A stretch of DNA of 64,000 bases from Mitsuaria sp. PDC51 (GTDB lineage: Bacteria; Pseudomonadota; Gammaproteobacteria; Burkholderiales; Burkholderiaceae_C), in NCBI RefSeq assembly GCF_900113225.1, contig NZ_FOZE01000002.1, positions 992,001-1,056,000 of the forward strand. The letters run 5' to 3'. The number at the start of each line of letters is the position of its first letter. Position 1 is the stretch's first letter. The position numbers were made by a program, and so were the translations under genes. Below are positions 29,332 to 35,932 of the stretch, in pieces. Under the pieces are notes generated by a model. It was not told the origin of the DNA and made no database searches. It saw only the letters and a program-made list of their open reading frames with translations.

Positions 29332-29588
29332 GAGTGGGAAGAGAACGGCGCCGCCACGCCCGATGCACGGGGCGGCGCGAATGGACCAGACAGCACTATC
29401 GGCTCGTTCCGTTCGATGCTGAATCCCCATCGCCGCTAACGCACGGCGTTATGCGTCACTACCTCACGGCCGCGCCCCCACGGTCGGCCTGCCGTGCGCC
29501 GTCACGCCGGCCCGTATCCCCAACTTGACCGCTTGCGACGCCAGCGCCCGGCGCCTAGGCTGGTCCATTGCCACTGCGGGAGACGGCC

Positions 29589-30735: not shown

Positions 30736-31896
30736 ATGGCCGAGGTCTTCCGCATCGAGCTGCTGCCGGCGCGGCACGGCGACTGCCTGCTGCTGAGCTA
30801 TGGCGACGCGGCGCGGCCCCATCGCGTGCTGATCGACGGCGGACCGATCGGCGCCTATGGCGCGCTGTCGGCCCGCCTGGCGGCGCTGCCCGAGGATCAG
30901 CGCGAGCTGGAACTGCTGGTCATCACGCATGTCGACGGCGATCACATCGAGGGCTGTCTCAAGCTGCTGAATCATCCGGAGCTGGCCACCTTCCGGGACA
31001 TCTGGTTCAACGGCTGGCCGCACATCGCGCAGGAACTGAAGGAGCCGCCGCCCGCCCCCCGCCAAGCGCCATCCGACGAGGCCGGCATCCACCAGCGCAG
31101 CGCGATGCAGGGCACCGAGATCAGCGTGCGCATCGATGGGCGCCAATGGAACGCGGCCTTCGAAGGCGCGCCGGTGTTCGTGCCCGCGACCGGCCCGCTG
31201 CCGGTGCGCGAGCTGCCCGGCGGCCTGCGGCTCACCTTGCTGTCGCCGACGCTGGACAAACTCGTCAAGCTGCGCACCGCCTGGAGCCGCGCGCTGGAGC
31301 GCGCCGAGGTCGACCCGGCGAACGAGGCGGCGCTGCGCGCGCGGCTCGATGGTCGCGCGGCCTATCGCGCCTCGGGCGCGCGGCTGCGGCCGACGCCGGA
31401 CCAGATGATGTCGTCGGCGGCGCTGGCGCTCGGGCCGATGGATGACGCGGTGGCCAACGGCTCGAGCATCGCCGTCATCGCCGAATACGCCGGTCGACGC
31501 CTCGCACTGCTCGGCGACGCGCATGCGCCGACGCTCGCGGCGACGCTGGGCCGGTTGGCGGCCGCAACGGGCGCCGCGACGCTGCGGCTCGACGCGGTCA
31601 AGCTGGCCCACCACGGCTCGGCCGCCAACCTCAGCCCGGAGTTGCTCGGCCGGATCGAGTGCGGCACCTGGCTGGTCTCCACCGACGGCAGCCTCTTCCA
31701 GCATCCGGACGACGAAGCGATCCACGCGGTCGTGCGGCAGGTGCCCGGCGCGCGCCTGTTCTTCAACTATCGGTCCGACCGCACCGCGCCGTGGGGCGAG
31801 CCGGCAATGCGCGCCGCGCACGGCCATCAAGCTTTCTACCCGCGCGATCCCGCCGCCGGCATTGCGCTGGACCTGATGACCGGCGAGCCGAGTTGA
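30736..31896 (+). CDS. MBL-fold metallo-hydrolase (ComEC/Rec2-like domain)
   Basis: The 386-residue protein starts with the MBL-fold strand RIELLPARHGDCLLLSYG and the metal-binding VITHVDGDHIEG motif. Further ligands are in LALLGDAHAPT and VKLAHHGSAANLS, as in ComEC C-terminal domains and stand-alone relatives. No membrane segment or signal peptide is present. An inserted helical region (about 150-230) separates the two halves. Its start lies 19 bases after patatin and its stop 33 bases from the convergent CHAT gene. The substrate is unknown; nucleotides or nucleic acids are typical of this subgroup. Confidence 0.82.
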   Translation: MAEVFRIELLPARHGDCLLLSYGDAARPHRVLIDGGPIGAYGALSARLAALPEDQRELELLVITHVDGDHIEGCLKLLNHPELATFRDIWFNGWPHIAQELKEPPPAPRQAPSDEAGIHQRSAMQGTEISVRIDGRQWNAAFEGAPVFVPATGPLPVRELPGGLRLTLLSPTLDKLVKLRTAWSRALERAEVDPANEAALRARLDGRAAYRASGARLRPTPDQMMSSAALALGPMDDAVANGSSIAVIAEYAGRRLALLGDAHAPTLAATLGRLAAATGAATLRLDAVKLAHHGSAANLSPELLGRIECGTWLVSTDGSLFQHPDDEAIHAVVRQVPGARLFFNYRSDRTAPWGEPAMRAAHGHQAFYPRDPAAGIALDLMTGEPS

Positions 31897-31929: not shown

Positions 31930-33453
31930 TCACGACCGGAATTCCGGCGTGACCAGCATCGCGGAGGCCCAGGCGTTGTCCCGGTCGCGGTAGCGCTTGT
32001 AGATGCGGCGCCGCGCCAGGCCGAAGGCCGCGTTCAGCGAGTGGCTGTGCAGCAGCATCCGGTAGAAGAGCCTCGCCTGCAGCGCCGCCGTGCGGTCGTT
32101 GACGCGGCAGCGATAACCCAGCACCGCATGGATGCCGGCGGCCGCGGCCAGCGCCGCGAAGCCCGAGTTGCCGCTCTCGCAGCTGCTCAGGTAGACGAAG
32201 CGCGCCTCGCGCATGTAGCTGACGATGTCGCCGAAGTCGATGCCCTCCGGCTCCTCCGCCGGCCCGATGAACAGGAAGCCGGTGCCGCCGCGCTGCTGCG
32301 CGCCATGGCGCTGGAAGCAGGTGTGGCCGGCGAAATGGATCAGGTCCCAGCTGCCCTCGCGCAGCGCCGCGTCGAGCGCCGCGCGCGTCACCGGCCCGTC
32401 CATGCCGAGCACGCGGATGTTGTCCTCGTAGAACAGCGGCTGGCCCGTGCGCGTATCGCGGGTCGTCAGCAGCTTGCGCACCCGCGCGCATTCGAGCCGC
32501 ACCGAGGTCAGAGGATCGAGCCGCACTTGCCCGCCCAGCAGCTTCGCGCTGAACACGCTGCCATGCGTGTCGGCGCAGATCAGCAGCGCGCGCCGCGCCG
32601 CGGGCGGTCCGGAGAACAGGTCCTGGCTCGCGTCGCCATCGCTTTCCAGCAGGCGCCGCGCCACCGAGGCGGCCTGCGCCAGCCAGGGCTCCGGCCGCAG
32701 CGACGGATCGAAGACCGCCTCCAGCATCAGCGGATAACAGGCCTCCGACACCGCGAAGGTGAGCCGGTCCGGCAGCTCGCGCCCGGCATCGCCCAGCTGC
32801 ATCGCCGCGGCGGCGCGGCCCAGTTCGCGCTGGACCTTGAAATGCGGGTTCTCGTCGCACAGCGCGATGCGGATGCTTTCGCCGATGTCGGAGAACTCGT
32901 CGTACCAGTCGGGCTGGAACATGTGCTGCGCTTCCCAGCGCATCCAGGCCGAGCGGGGCACGGTCAGCATGCCGTCGCCATGGAACTTGAAGCCGATGCC
33001 GTCGATGTCGAAGCTCCAGCCGGTCTCGCTGGCCTTGACGCGGATCGCCAGGCAGGGATCGACGCGCTGGCCGGGCTGCAGCAGCTCGAGCGCGAAGCCG
33101 CCGGCGGTGCCCGGATCGGCATAGGCGGTCAGGCCCGGCACGCGCGCGCTCTCGCGCTGCAGCTCCGAGGTCAGCGCCGGCGCCAGCAGCATCATCGGCG
33201 TCTGCGTCAGCAGCCGGGCCTTGCGGCAGAAGTCGAGACCGCCGCCGTCCTCCACCACCGCGCCGGCATCGGCCGCGAGGCGGCTGCCGACGATGACGAA
33301 GTCGAAGCGCTGCTGCTGCAGCTGCTCCAGGGCGGTCTCGCAGGTGGTCTCCTGCTGCACCGCGTGCGCGCCGAAGCGCCGCAGCTGCTTCTTGATCTGC
33401 TCGACCTCGATGCCTTGCTGCTGCGGACAGAACACCAGGAGGAAGTCAGCCAT
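31930..33453 (-). CDS. Pseudo-receiver domain fused to CHAT (caspase-like) protease
   Basis: The 507-residue protein begins with a receiver-like fold (about 1-125). The phospho-acceptor Asp is replaced by Gly (FDFVIVGSRLA where receivers have DLVxxDxxLP), and the acidic pair, Thr and Lys are also missing. A middle part (about 130-285) is unassigned. The C-terminal half is a CHAT peptidase domain with catalytic His in DLIHFAGHTC and Cys in VYLSSCESG. The ATG at 33453 overlaps the upstream sensor gene by 8 bases. No signal peptide is present. It may be a protease switched by the partner sensor; substrates are unknown. Confidence 0.8.
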   Translation of the reverse strand: MADFLLVFCPQQQGIEVEQIKKQLRRFGAHAVQQETTCETALEQLQQQRFDFVIVGSRLAADAGAVVEDGGGLDFCRKARLLTQTPMMLLAPALTSELQRESARVPGLTAYADPGTAGGFALELLQPGQRVDPCLAIRVKASETGWSFDIDGIGFKFHGDGMLTVPRSAWMRWEAQHMFQPDWYDEFSDIGESIRIALCDENPHFKVQRELGRAAAAMQLGDAGRELPDRLTFAVSEACYPLMLEAVFDPSLRPEPWLAQAASVARRLLESDGDASQDLFSGPPAARRALLICADTHGSVFSAKLLGGQVRLDPLTSVRLECARVRKLLTTRDTRTGQPLFYEDNIRVLGMDGPVTRAALDAALREGSWDLIHFAGHTCFQRHGAQQRGGTGFLFIGPAEEPEGIDFGDIVSYMREARFVYLSSCESGNSGFAALAAAAGIHAVLGYRCRVNDRTAALQARLFYRMLLHSHSLNAAFGLARRRIYKRYRDRDNAWASAMLVTPEFRS

Positions 33454-35932
33454 GAGCGATCCCCCTTGGGAAACCGAGCACGAATTCGGTCTCGCCATCG
33501 GCCAGCGCGTGGATGCGCAGGCTGCCGCCCTGGTTGCGCATCAGCTTGTCGAGCAGCGGATGAGCCAGCCGCAGATCCGCCTGCGCCGCCTCGGGCGCCG
33601 CGAAACGCGTGCCGTGCCGACGGGCCGGTGGCAGCTTGCCGCGCAGGCGCAGGAAGACTTCCCGGTCGTCCGGCACCAGCGTGAGCTGCACCGTCGCCGT
33701 CTCCGGCGCCGCGCGCAGCAGCACCGACAGCAGGCTCTCCACGACGATGTGCATCTGCGTGTGGTCGGCCTCGACCTCGACCCGCCGCGCCGCCGAGACC
33801 AGCCGCACCTTCTCCCGCTCCGACGCGGCCAGGCTGGCGAGCAGCGCCTCCAGCTCGCTGTCGAGCTGGACCGTGCTGACCGCGCGCGCGGCGACGCGGG
33901 CCTCGCGGTTGTACATGGCCAGGCGCGTGAAGGCATGCTTCACCCGGCCCAGTTGCCGCAGGACCGTCTGCAGGTCGCGGGCCCGGTCCGGGTCGCGCGC
34001 GGCGCCAGGACGATGCGCCGACTCGAGCTCGCTTTCCAGCCAGGACATCGCCATGCCCAGCGGCGCCTGCGTCTCGACGGCCAGCTCGTAGGCGGTCTCC
34101 TCCAGGAACTCGAGCTGCACCGACCGGCGGATCGGCCGCAGGTCGCGCGCGATGAACACATGGCCGCCGAGCTTGCCGGGAAAGTCGCGCCGGGTGACGA
34201 AGACCGAGCTGGGCGCCTCCCCCATCCCGCCCGACGCCTCGGAGCCCTGGGCGGCCTCCGCCGCCGCGTCCTCGCAGGCCGGGCGGCGCACGTGCAACTC
34301 CCCGAGCCGATCACCGGCCTCGGTGCCCTGCAGTAGCGCCACCAGCGGCTGCGGATCCTGGAACAGGTCGATCAGGCTGCGCCCCTCGAGCGCCTTGCGA
34401 CGCGCGCCGAACAGCGCTTCCGCGGCCGGATTGACGCGGCGGATCCGCAGTTTCGCGTCGGTGGCGATGACCGGATCGGCGACGTTGTTCACGCACTCGG
34501 TCATCAAGGTCAGGTCGCTGATGCGCTCCATCGCGCCGGCGATCTCGTGGGCGATGTCGGTCAGCTGCCGGACATGCTCGCGCGAGAACGCGTTGACCCG
34601 GGGATCGTCGACGTTGACGATGAAGCGCACCCGCTCGCCCTCGGAGAACAGGATGGGCACCGCCAGTTCGGAGCGGATCGGCTCGCCATCGGGCGTGCGC
34701 AGGTAGTCGGGGTCCTGCGAGACATCCGCGATCTTCTGCGCCGTCATCGTCCGCGCCACGCGGCCGAGGATGCCCACGCCCAGGTGCTGCGCGTAGTCGC
34801 CCCAGACGGTGCCGGTATCGACCGCGCACCCGTCCTCGCCGCGGCGCGCCGAGGCCACGCGCACGATGGACTCGCGCGCGCTGTCGATGCGGAACAGCGC
34901 GACATGCTGCCAGTCGAAGATCTCGATCAGCGCGTCGGCCAGGCAGCGGCAGGCGCCCTGGATGTCGACGCAGCGGTTGAGCGCGCGGAACATCCGCAGC
35001 TGGCGCCGGTCGCGCTCCTGGGCCGCGTGGTCCAGCGCGCAGAGCACCGTCTCGACCAGGGGCAGCTGGTTGAACAGCGTCTGATGGGACTCGCCGTAGG
35101 CATCGCGCTCGCGGCTGAGCAGGGTCAGGATGGCGACGGTGCGCTCGTCGCTGCCCTGCCCGCGGGTGATGCGTCGCCACATGCTGGACTTCAGCTCCAT
35201 CGCGCGCATCTGGCGGCAGATCGGCTCGTCGGCCATGTCGGACCAGGGCGGCGCGCTCATCACCGCGTCGAAGTCGTGGATGCCGCCGTCGTTCGCTTCC
35301 ATGAAGGCGCGCTGCGCGTCGTTGAGCTCGTACCAGGCGGTCGGCACGTCCTGGCGGAAGGGCGGGTGGTTGAAGACGATCTCCGATTCCCAATGCTCGC
35401 CGTCCGCGACGACGCGGGACACCAGCATCAGGTCGTAGGGCAGCTCGCTGCGCAGGGCTTCGGCCATCCGCGGCAGCAGGTCCGGGCGTCCGGCGTGGCT
35501 CAGCGTCAATTCGCGCAGCCGGTCGGTCAGCACCTGGTGCTGCAGGCTGCGGAAGAAACCCAGCGAGCCCACCACCGCGCCCCGCGCGTCCATCAGCGGC
35601 AGGCCGGTGACCTCGACGGCGACCTGGCGGCCAGGGTCGTCCAGGCGCGTCAGCGTGACGCGATAGGCGCCGAGCTCGCCGTTGCGTCGACCGCGTGTCT
35701 CTTCGTCGAGGATGCGGCCGGCCTCGCCGGCGAAGAGCTGGTCCAGGCGCAGCTCGTCGACATGGGCGGCGCCGCTCATGTCCAAGGCGGCGGCATTGGC
35801 GTAGAGCACGCGGTTCGCGAGGTCGCGCTGGATCACGGCGATGCGTGAGCCGTCGAAGACCGCCCGCTTCATCTGCCCCAGCAGCGCGGCCGCCGCGGCG
35901 GACGTGGGCCGCTCGTGCGCGGAGTCGTCCAT
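33446..35932 (-). CDS. PAS/GAF multi-sensor protein with degenerate histidine-kinase module
   Basis: The 828-residue soluble protein has a PAS domain (about 25-140; RVLYANAAALDMSG), two GAF-like regions (about 150-300 and 320-480), a second PAS (about 485-600; DPVIATDAKLRIRRVNPAAEALFGA) and a C-terminal kinase-like module. The H-box position (LEFLEETAYELAVETQAPLG) has no His, and the ATP-lid N and G boxes are not recognisable, so kinase activity is doubtful. The start at 35932 has AGGGAGG five bases upstream. It overlaps the REC-CHAT gene by 8 bases, implying coupled translation and probably physical partnership. Confidence 0.75.
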   Translation of the reverse strand: MDDSAHERPTSAAAAALLGQMKRAVFDGSRIAVIQRDLANRVLYANAAALDMSGAAHVDELRLDQLFAGEAGRILDEETRGRRNGELGAYRVTLTRLDDPGRQVAVEVTGLPLMDARGAVVGSLGFFRSLQHQVLTDRLRELTLSHAGRPDLLPRMAEALRSELPYDLMLVSRVVADGEHWESEIVFNHPPFRQDVPTAWYELNDAQRAFMEANDGGIHDFDAVMSAPPWSDMADEPICRQMRAMELKSSMWRRITRGQGSDERTVAILTLLSRERDAYGESHQTLFNQLPLVETVLCALDHAAQERDRRQLRMFRALNRCVDIQGACRCLADALIEIFDWQHVALFRIDSARESIVRVASARRGEDGCAVDTGTVWGDYAQHLGVGILGRVARTMTAQKIADVSQDPDYLRTPDGEPIRSELAVPILFSEGERVRFIVNVDDPRVNAFSREHVRQLTDIAHEIAGAMERISDLTLMTECVNNVADPVIATDAKLRIRRVNPAAEALFGARRKALEGRSLIDLFQDPQPLVALLQGTEAGDRLGELHVRRPACEDAAAEAAQGSEASGGMGEAPSSVFVTRRDFPGKLGGHVFIARDLRPIRRSVQLEFLEETAYELAVETQAPLGMAMSWLESELESAHRPGAARDPDRARDLQTVLRQLGRVKHAFTRLAMYNREARVAARAVSTVQLDSELEALLASLAASEREKVRLVSAARRVEVEADHTQMHIVVESLLSVLLRAAPETATVQLTLVPDDREVFLRLRGKLPPARRHGTRFAAPEAAQADLRLAHPLLDKLMRNQGGSLRIHALADGETEFVLGFPRGIAHG

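Follow-up and report, generated by a model that had tools for sequence, protein, structure and literature searches.

The window analysed here, a stretch of 64,000 nucleotides from Mitsuaria sp. PDC51 (contig NZ_FOZE01000002.1, positions 992,001 to 1,056,000), carries four neighbouring genes arranged as two convergent pairs (Table 1). On the reverse strand, the gene for a sensor protein with a degenerate histidine kinase part overlaps a gene whose product fuses a receiver-like domain to a CHAT domain. On the forward strand, the genes for a patatin-like phospholipase and for a metallo-beta-lactamase (MBL) fold hydrolase converge tail-to-tail on the CHAT gene. A first-pass annotation of the window had described the overlapping pair as a two-component system turned into a phosphorylation-free switch with a proteolytic output. 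The pair is confirmed, but a unit of two genes proved incomplete: the cassette has four genes, of which the patatin and MBL genes are likely to encode the effectors.

Table 1. Genes and features of the four-gene cassette (positions within the window).
Feature	Position	Strand	Remarks
Patatin-like phospholipase, 375 amino acids	29589..30716	+	Precedes the MBL gene by 19 bases; alternative in-frame start (TTG) at 29568 possible
MBL-fold hydrolase, 386 amino acids, predicted gated pro-nuclease (Avs1a/LmuA/CanC-like)	30736..31896	+	Convergent with the CHAT gene
MBL first gating segment, residues 98-125	31027..31110	+	Variable linker, then invariant QRSA; Arg121 codon 31096-31098
Pseudo-receiver-CHAT protease (predicted), 507 amino acids	31930..33453	-	Overlaps the sensor gene by 8 nucleotides
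CHAT domain (PF12770), residues 225-501	31951..32781	-	His377 codon 32323-32325; Cys425 codon 32179-32181
Pseudo-receiver domain, residues 1-125	33079..33453	-	Phospho-Asp position taken by G56 (codon 33286-33288)
Sensor pseudokinase, 828 amino acids	33446..35932	-	Orthologue beside the CHAT gene in 7 of 16 genus genomes
V619 codon, phospho-His position of the kinase H-box	34076..34078	-	His in 0 of 32 sensor homologues

The sensor comprises, in order, a PAS domain (residues ~30-130), a GAF-like domain (~150-300), a GAF domain (~323-470), a second PAS domain (~480-598) and a degenerate DHp-CA part (~605-826). The kinase parts of 32 sensors were aligned, with a canonical kinase from beside the cassette in a relative as reference. 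With the kinase boxes named and defined as usual, the H-box reads VETQAPL where HELRTPL is expected, and the column of the phospho-accepting His is occupied by Val (27 sensors), Ile (2), Gly (2) or Gln (1). The N-box Asn is absent from the same alignment (0/32), and a pattern search of the final 170 residues found no glycine motif of the G1/G2 type (DxGxG, NPGDP-type or GxG[LM]) in any of the 32 sensors. The CA-domain fold of histidine kinases is retained, according to structure predictions made for the CHAT and sensor proteins only, and to fold comparisons from which other families may have been crowded out. By these alignments the sensor side is defective in every homologue looked at, as had been noticed for the window itself.

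The N-terminal domain of the CHAT protein retains the (beta-alpha)5 receiver fold. When the receiver domains of 21 CHAT proteins are aligned with a canonical response regulator from the same relative, the phospho-Asp column holds Gly in 17 of them, Glu in two, Thr in one and Asp in one. Neither the switch Thr nor the switch Lys was found in any of the 21 (L081 being gapped at Lys), and in three the first position of the acidic pair holds an acidic residue. The sole acceptor Asp belongs to L081, a distant pair from another family of the order, the sensor of which has Gln in place of His. On this comparison the receiver side is defective nearly everywhere looked at (20 of 21 without Asp). An intact receiver or kinase in the window was thus ruled out, by residue alignment, a 330-residue fragment (P0015) being excluded, and by the search for glycine motifs.

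The remainder of the protein is in better order, as the first-pass annotation had it. The CHAT domain scores 84.7 bits against PF12770 (cut-off 24), all 17 homologues compared have its His-Cys dyad (H377/C425), and we consider it a predicted protease. The dyad is also present in three divergent proteins (L046, L048 and L081), while the sequence of a fourth (L047) stops before it. We take D453 of this CHAT domain, as no more than a lead, to be the equivalent of the S1 Asp of separase. Separase D2151 is tied to the P1-Arg (PMC9729208; for this and all other papers cited by PMC number, statements are limited to the part of the text that was available).

Orthologues of all four genes occur in the same seven of the 16 genomes of the genus, in identical order in all seven carriers. 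The co-occurrence that the first-pass annotation expected of the sensor and CHAT genes thus extends to the patatin and MBL genes. The other nine genomes have no class-1 CHAT, sensor or patatin gene at the cut-offs used, and two of them have a distant MBL alone. The 8-nucleotide sensor/CHAT overlap is kept in all seven class-1 loci (for L015/L053 the gene caller picked a later start, but an ATG is present at the overlapping position). The cassette lies in two neighbourhoods: near a sigma-54 regulator gene in the window, L014, L049, L054 and L055, which differ from one another in some genes, and at another chromosomal location in L052 and L053. The sigma-54 regulator and aldehyde dehydrogenase genes flanking the cassette were rejected as members of the unit, as they were not found in the second neighbourhood. 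The chance of identical genome sets is 1 in 11,440 per gene pair, but as the genomes are related, the two neighbourhoods provide a better argument than this figure. Given that no intact kinase or receiver was found, that the pair co-occurs and that the CHAT His and Cys are conserved, it is a sound inference, from sequence comparison, that the pair forms a phosphorylation-free switch with a proteolytic output.

The relatives that have a name are Roseateles and Rubrivivax records. In a sample across the order, a match was found in only three of 399 genomes (own genome included), and a profile search with A1 revealed no new homologues among the best 7996 candidates. A phage or plasmid gene was rejected as an explanation, as no phage record was found and one plasmid record matched 30% of the query, in its CHAT part. 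More divergent pairs exist nonetheless. Two class-2 loci (L046 and L048, ~25% identical) encode a sensor/receiver-CHAT pair with a 4-nucleotide overlap and a Glu at the phospho-Asp position of the receiver, and the G007 genome carries both class 1 and class 2. Further pairs, each with a 4-nucleotide overlap, are found in L047 (another family) and L081. The class-2 operons (L046:9522-16929 and L048:2602-10147) also encode a second CHAT protein, which has a sub-threshold match to DUF7363, and a 435-residue protein of unknown family, which matched nothing in Pfam, PADLOC or NCBIfam, and nothing convincingly in the PDB. By its motifs, the latter gives a phospholipase-C-like impression, which we do not claim.

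The conserved overlap bears on how the two proteins communicate. The receiver-like domain may be a ligand or nucleotide switch of its own, the sensor merely scaffolding or oligomerising CHAT, with no contact between kinase and receiver. There are precedents: for conflict systems, a role as nucleotide switches has been suggested for kinase-less receivers (PMC8195603), direct binding of ligands is known for pseudo-receivers (PMC12632262), and a HamA-fused protease is activated by oligomerisation (PMC12799240). We nevertheless consider this scenario unlikely, as the genes overlap by 8 nucleotides in every class-1 locus and by 4 in three divergent lineages, and as the kinase fold is retained next to the receiver fold, which suggests that their interface has been kept.

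The MBL protein provides a candidate target for the protease. Its PADLOC matches are to LmuA (209 bits over residues 5-348) and Avs1a (130 bits), and it matches the NCBIfam Avs1a model with 193 bits over residues 10-350, under the equivalog cut-off of 420 bits. HamM and Avs1a are pro-nucleases in which two insertions block activity until a partner protease opens the enzyme, and CanC is gated in the same way, by prediction and assay (PMC12799240). Such protease-activated MBL nucleases occur in Hachiman, AVAST and Canu, and nucleases beside proteases of further families are also mentioned (PMC12799240). HamM is cut after I118 and after I218, and Avs1a beside I134, according to published data (PMC12799240). 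Two sequences that exceed the Avs1a cut-off were compared, and in one of them Ile occupies positions 134 and 235 (published: 134 and 234). At the first site, the Avs1a-type motif P-I-[GS]-A-[KR]-Q-G is replaced in all seven cassette MBLs by Q-R-S-A-[ML]-Q-G, preceded by a linker of variable length, and the cassette Arg is in register with the first cut residue (Ile) of Avs1a. We compared this column in 43 MBLs: Arg is present in all seven cassette members, while the 36 others have Ile (3, of Avs1a type), Arg (3) or Leu, Phe, Tyr, Met or Ala (30). Because this invariant Arg aligns with the published first cut position, Arg121 is the predicted cleavage position of the cassette MBL, which is a likely substrate of CHAT. 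In a tree of MBLs, the seven cassette members group together (support 1.0), beside a canu-type MBL from L056 (0.905).

The patatin scores 53.0 bits against PF01734 (cut-off 27.7). By the known catalytic motif patterns of the two families, the Ser/Asp motifs of the patatin and the metal-site motif of the MBL are retained. Their association is not restricted to the cassette. Of 349 genomes in a second sample of the family, 20 encode such an MBL, the own genome being one of them, and we took 21 MBL loci from the remaining 19. These loci are not independent, as some are close relatives (L107 and L108; L104 and L106; L119 and L121; L120 and L122). A patatin of the cassette family lies within the stretch in eight of them, and a Tle1-like lipase in one. 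Our own seed profiles for caspase, CHAT and subtilase gave no match in the 21 loci, but they missed the CHAT gene of L111, which was found with Pfam, so that the class of protease is unassigned for most of these loci. L111, from another genus of the family, has patatin, MBL and CHAT(TPR-S) genes in a row (L111:4959-9262), the patatin being 71% and the MBL 39% identical to those of the window. In L104, L107, L108, L110 and L113, a patatin gene is followed by a long gene and then by the MBL gene. The long middle genes (977-986 residues in L107, L110 and L113) have no clear Pfam domain, the best match being a sub-threshold C25 in L110. Site 1 of the MBL is Leu-Gly-Gly or Leu-Gly-Ala in these five loci, and the MBLs of four of them also have Leu-Leu-Gly-Ser/Gly within the second segment.

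Plasmids provide further examples. MBL matches are present in 54 plasmid records, from which we examined 12 loci (L073 being without annotation), and in seven of them (L056, L057, L058, L059, L061, L062 and L074) an annotated caspase gene adjoins the MBL gene or is one gene off. L056, the canu-type locus mentioned above, also has a patatin 47% identical to that of the window. In L057, on a Bradyrhizobium plasmid, a Tle1-like phospholipase gene is followed by caspase, CanB-like and MBL genes (L057:2241-7083). Similarly, 47 plasmid records have a patatin match, and seven loci were examined on this basis. CBASS genes are found close to L068 and L070. Genes annotated as DUF1837 and helicase, which we presume to be Hachiman genes, adjoin L066 and L068. 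L066, L068 and L070 also have a 629-residue-type gene and a larger, distant MBL, and in L071 a subtilase accompanies a distant MBL (27%). L072, on a Bradyrhizobium plasmid, has patatin, DUF2252, phospholipase D-like and hypothetical genes followed by two CHAT genes in a row (L072:5923-13041), and the patatin loci L067 and L069 are less clear. Finally, in a member of the genus without the cassette, an MBL gene of the same class forms a row with a subtilase gene and the gene for a 472-residue protein that shows no clear domain (L050:2940-10502). The patatin-MBL pairing thus recurs with caspase, with CHAT-TPR-S and with subtilase (with a more distant MBL).

We consider it fairly probable, from these sequence comparisons, that the cassette is a unit in which a phosphate-free pseudokinase/pseudo-receiver pair controls the CHAT protease, which is predicted to activate the gated MBL nuclease beside the patatin and thereby to cause death or arrest of the cell. 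The sensor would hold CHAT off (or on) by direct contact through the old kinase-receiver interface, without phosphate transfer. A change of an intracellular ligand in the PAS/GAF part would free or assemble the protease, and CHAT would cut the MBL after Arg121 and at a second site. The opened nuclease would then degrade DNA, the patatin phospholipase likely adding membrane damage. The cell would die or arrest, the likely purpose being anti-phage or stress-triggered self-sacrifice.

Several observations weigh against this scenario. The cassette is narrowly distributed even within its genus, and the own genome was the only carrier among 250 genomes of the family and 369 of the class, in samples for which few candidates were scored per genome and of which the family one apparently included only three members of the genus. 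The flanks in the window resemble ordinary chromosomal genes rather than a defence island (as judged by eye, and by Pfam for two neighbours), and CHAT, sensor and patatin have no PADLOC match at E<=0.1. The double-sided loss of phosphotransfer residues is not universal, since the L081 receiver retains its Asp although its sensor lacks the His; here the first-pass proposal of a converted two-component system needs qualifying. As for the MBL, it falls short of the Avs1a equivalog score. The site-1 Arg also occurs in L120, L122 and L123, the MBLs of which have no assigned protease partner, while L111, the other CHAT-linked MBL, has Leu-Gly-Gly at this site, which rules out that a CHAT partner alone predicts the Arg. 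In the second gating segment, R/K207 and R211 are both candidates, and alignments disagree.

Some of these points would fit another scenario, in which the sensor-CHAT pair is a regulator of stress or development whose substrate is a host protein encoded elsewhere (an anti-sigma factor, for example), while patatin and MBL are stable neighbours acting separately. Tail-to-tail operons do not require a shared function, the flanks look ordinary, and the class-2 loci L046 and L048 lack patatin and MBL genes in the stretches read, with the second CHAT protein and the 435-residue protein instead. We regard this scenario as quite improbable, however, as the four genes stay together in all carriers across two neighbourhoods, and as patatin-MBL pairs recur beside other proteases. 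It is very doubtful that phosphorylation persists by other means, through a different kinase or another phosphate-accepting residue, for which the Asp of L081 and the class-2 Glu, able to mimic a phosphorylated state, could be invoked, when 20 of 21 receivers lack the acceptor and none has an identifiable switch Thr or Lys (one being gapped at Lys).

The proposed unit, a pseudo-two-component pair controlling protease, nuclease and phospholipase, is close in design to Canu (CanABC; PMC12799240), which likewise has a caspase-like protease with its partner protein and an MBL pro-nuclease that is gated. The canu-type MBL with which those of the cassette group also has a patatin at its locus. The cassette differs from Canu in having CHAT in place of the C14 caspase, a PAS/GAF pseudokinase and a pseudo-receiver in place of CanB, a patatin in all seven carriers, convergent operons, and Arg at site 1 where Leu or Phe followed by Gly is usual. 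Neither Pfam nor a seven-sequence caspase profile detected a C14 caspase (CanA) in the cassette, and a CanB profile, built from three sequences only, gave no match in the four proteins at E<=10. As the protease is a CHAT without C14 match, we rejected membership in Canu. AVAST type 1 and protease-Hachiman (Avs1a, HamM) share with the cassette a homologous MBL, the first gating position of which coincides, being Ile in those systems and Arg in the cassette. The four cassette genes include no helicase (Pfam), and Pfam found neither a STAND NTPase nor a trypsin-like protease among them and two neighbours, so that membership in AVAST type 1 was also rejected. TPR-CHAT/Csx29 (Craspase) and SAVED-CHAT resemble the pair in their CHAT fold, His-Cys dyad and sensor-triggered protease logic, while the pair has no CRISPR effector, TPR or SAVED domain (Pfam) and is under pseudo-two-component control. 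The patatin, as a likely membrane effector, recalls CapV, the patatin effector of CBASS, but there is no cyclase among the cassette genes.

Pseudo-receivers and pseudo-histidine kinases that retain their fold without phosphotransfer residues are on record (PMC12632262). In the cassette both partners are defective and yet paired, and the output is a protease; of the 20 atypical regulators in that account, only CmrT and FrzS are non-orphan, and the words 'protease' and 'caspase' are absent from its main text as available (PMC12632262). Likewise, 'CHAT', 'patatin' and 'phospholipase' do not appear in the available main text of PMC12799240, and a receiver domain is named once among effectors without histidine kinases, with no CHAT or patatin in the available text (PMC7159879). 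In the titles and abstract openings of the papers listed by searches of open-licence literature, we recognised no description of a receiver-CHAT with a pseudokinase partner, in agreement with the first-pass annotation, or of a patatin-MBL-CHAT cassette. Protease-activated nucleases are known already; it is the pseudo-two-component control layer that we did not find described.

It may be, and we would not lean either way, that a whole two-component system has become a phosphate-free immune trigger, in which a dead sensor and a dead switch control a caspase-like protease, this protease in turn releasing a pro-nuclease that is gated at an Arg and stands beside a phospholipase. This would be the first case of pseudo-two-component control of a suicide protease, and a branch of a larger patatin-MBL family. 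If so, patatin-MBL pairs have repeatedly exchanged their controlling protease (caspase, CHAT-TPR-S, subtilase or receiver-CHAT). Pseudo-receivers and pseudokinases pose the general question of how they signal. As both defective partners are kept, and as cleavage of a named neighbour is predicted at a named residue, phosphorylation-free two-component signalling becomes directly testable in this cassette, which would extend the theme of protease-activated nucleases to CHAT proteases, with a phospholipase as a recurrent second effector.

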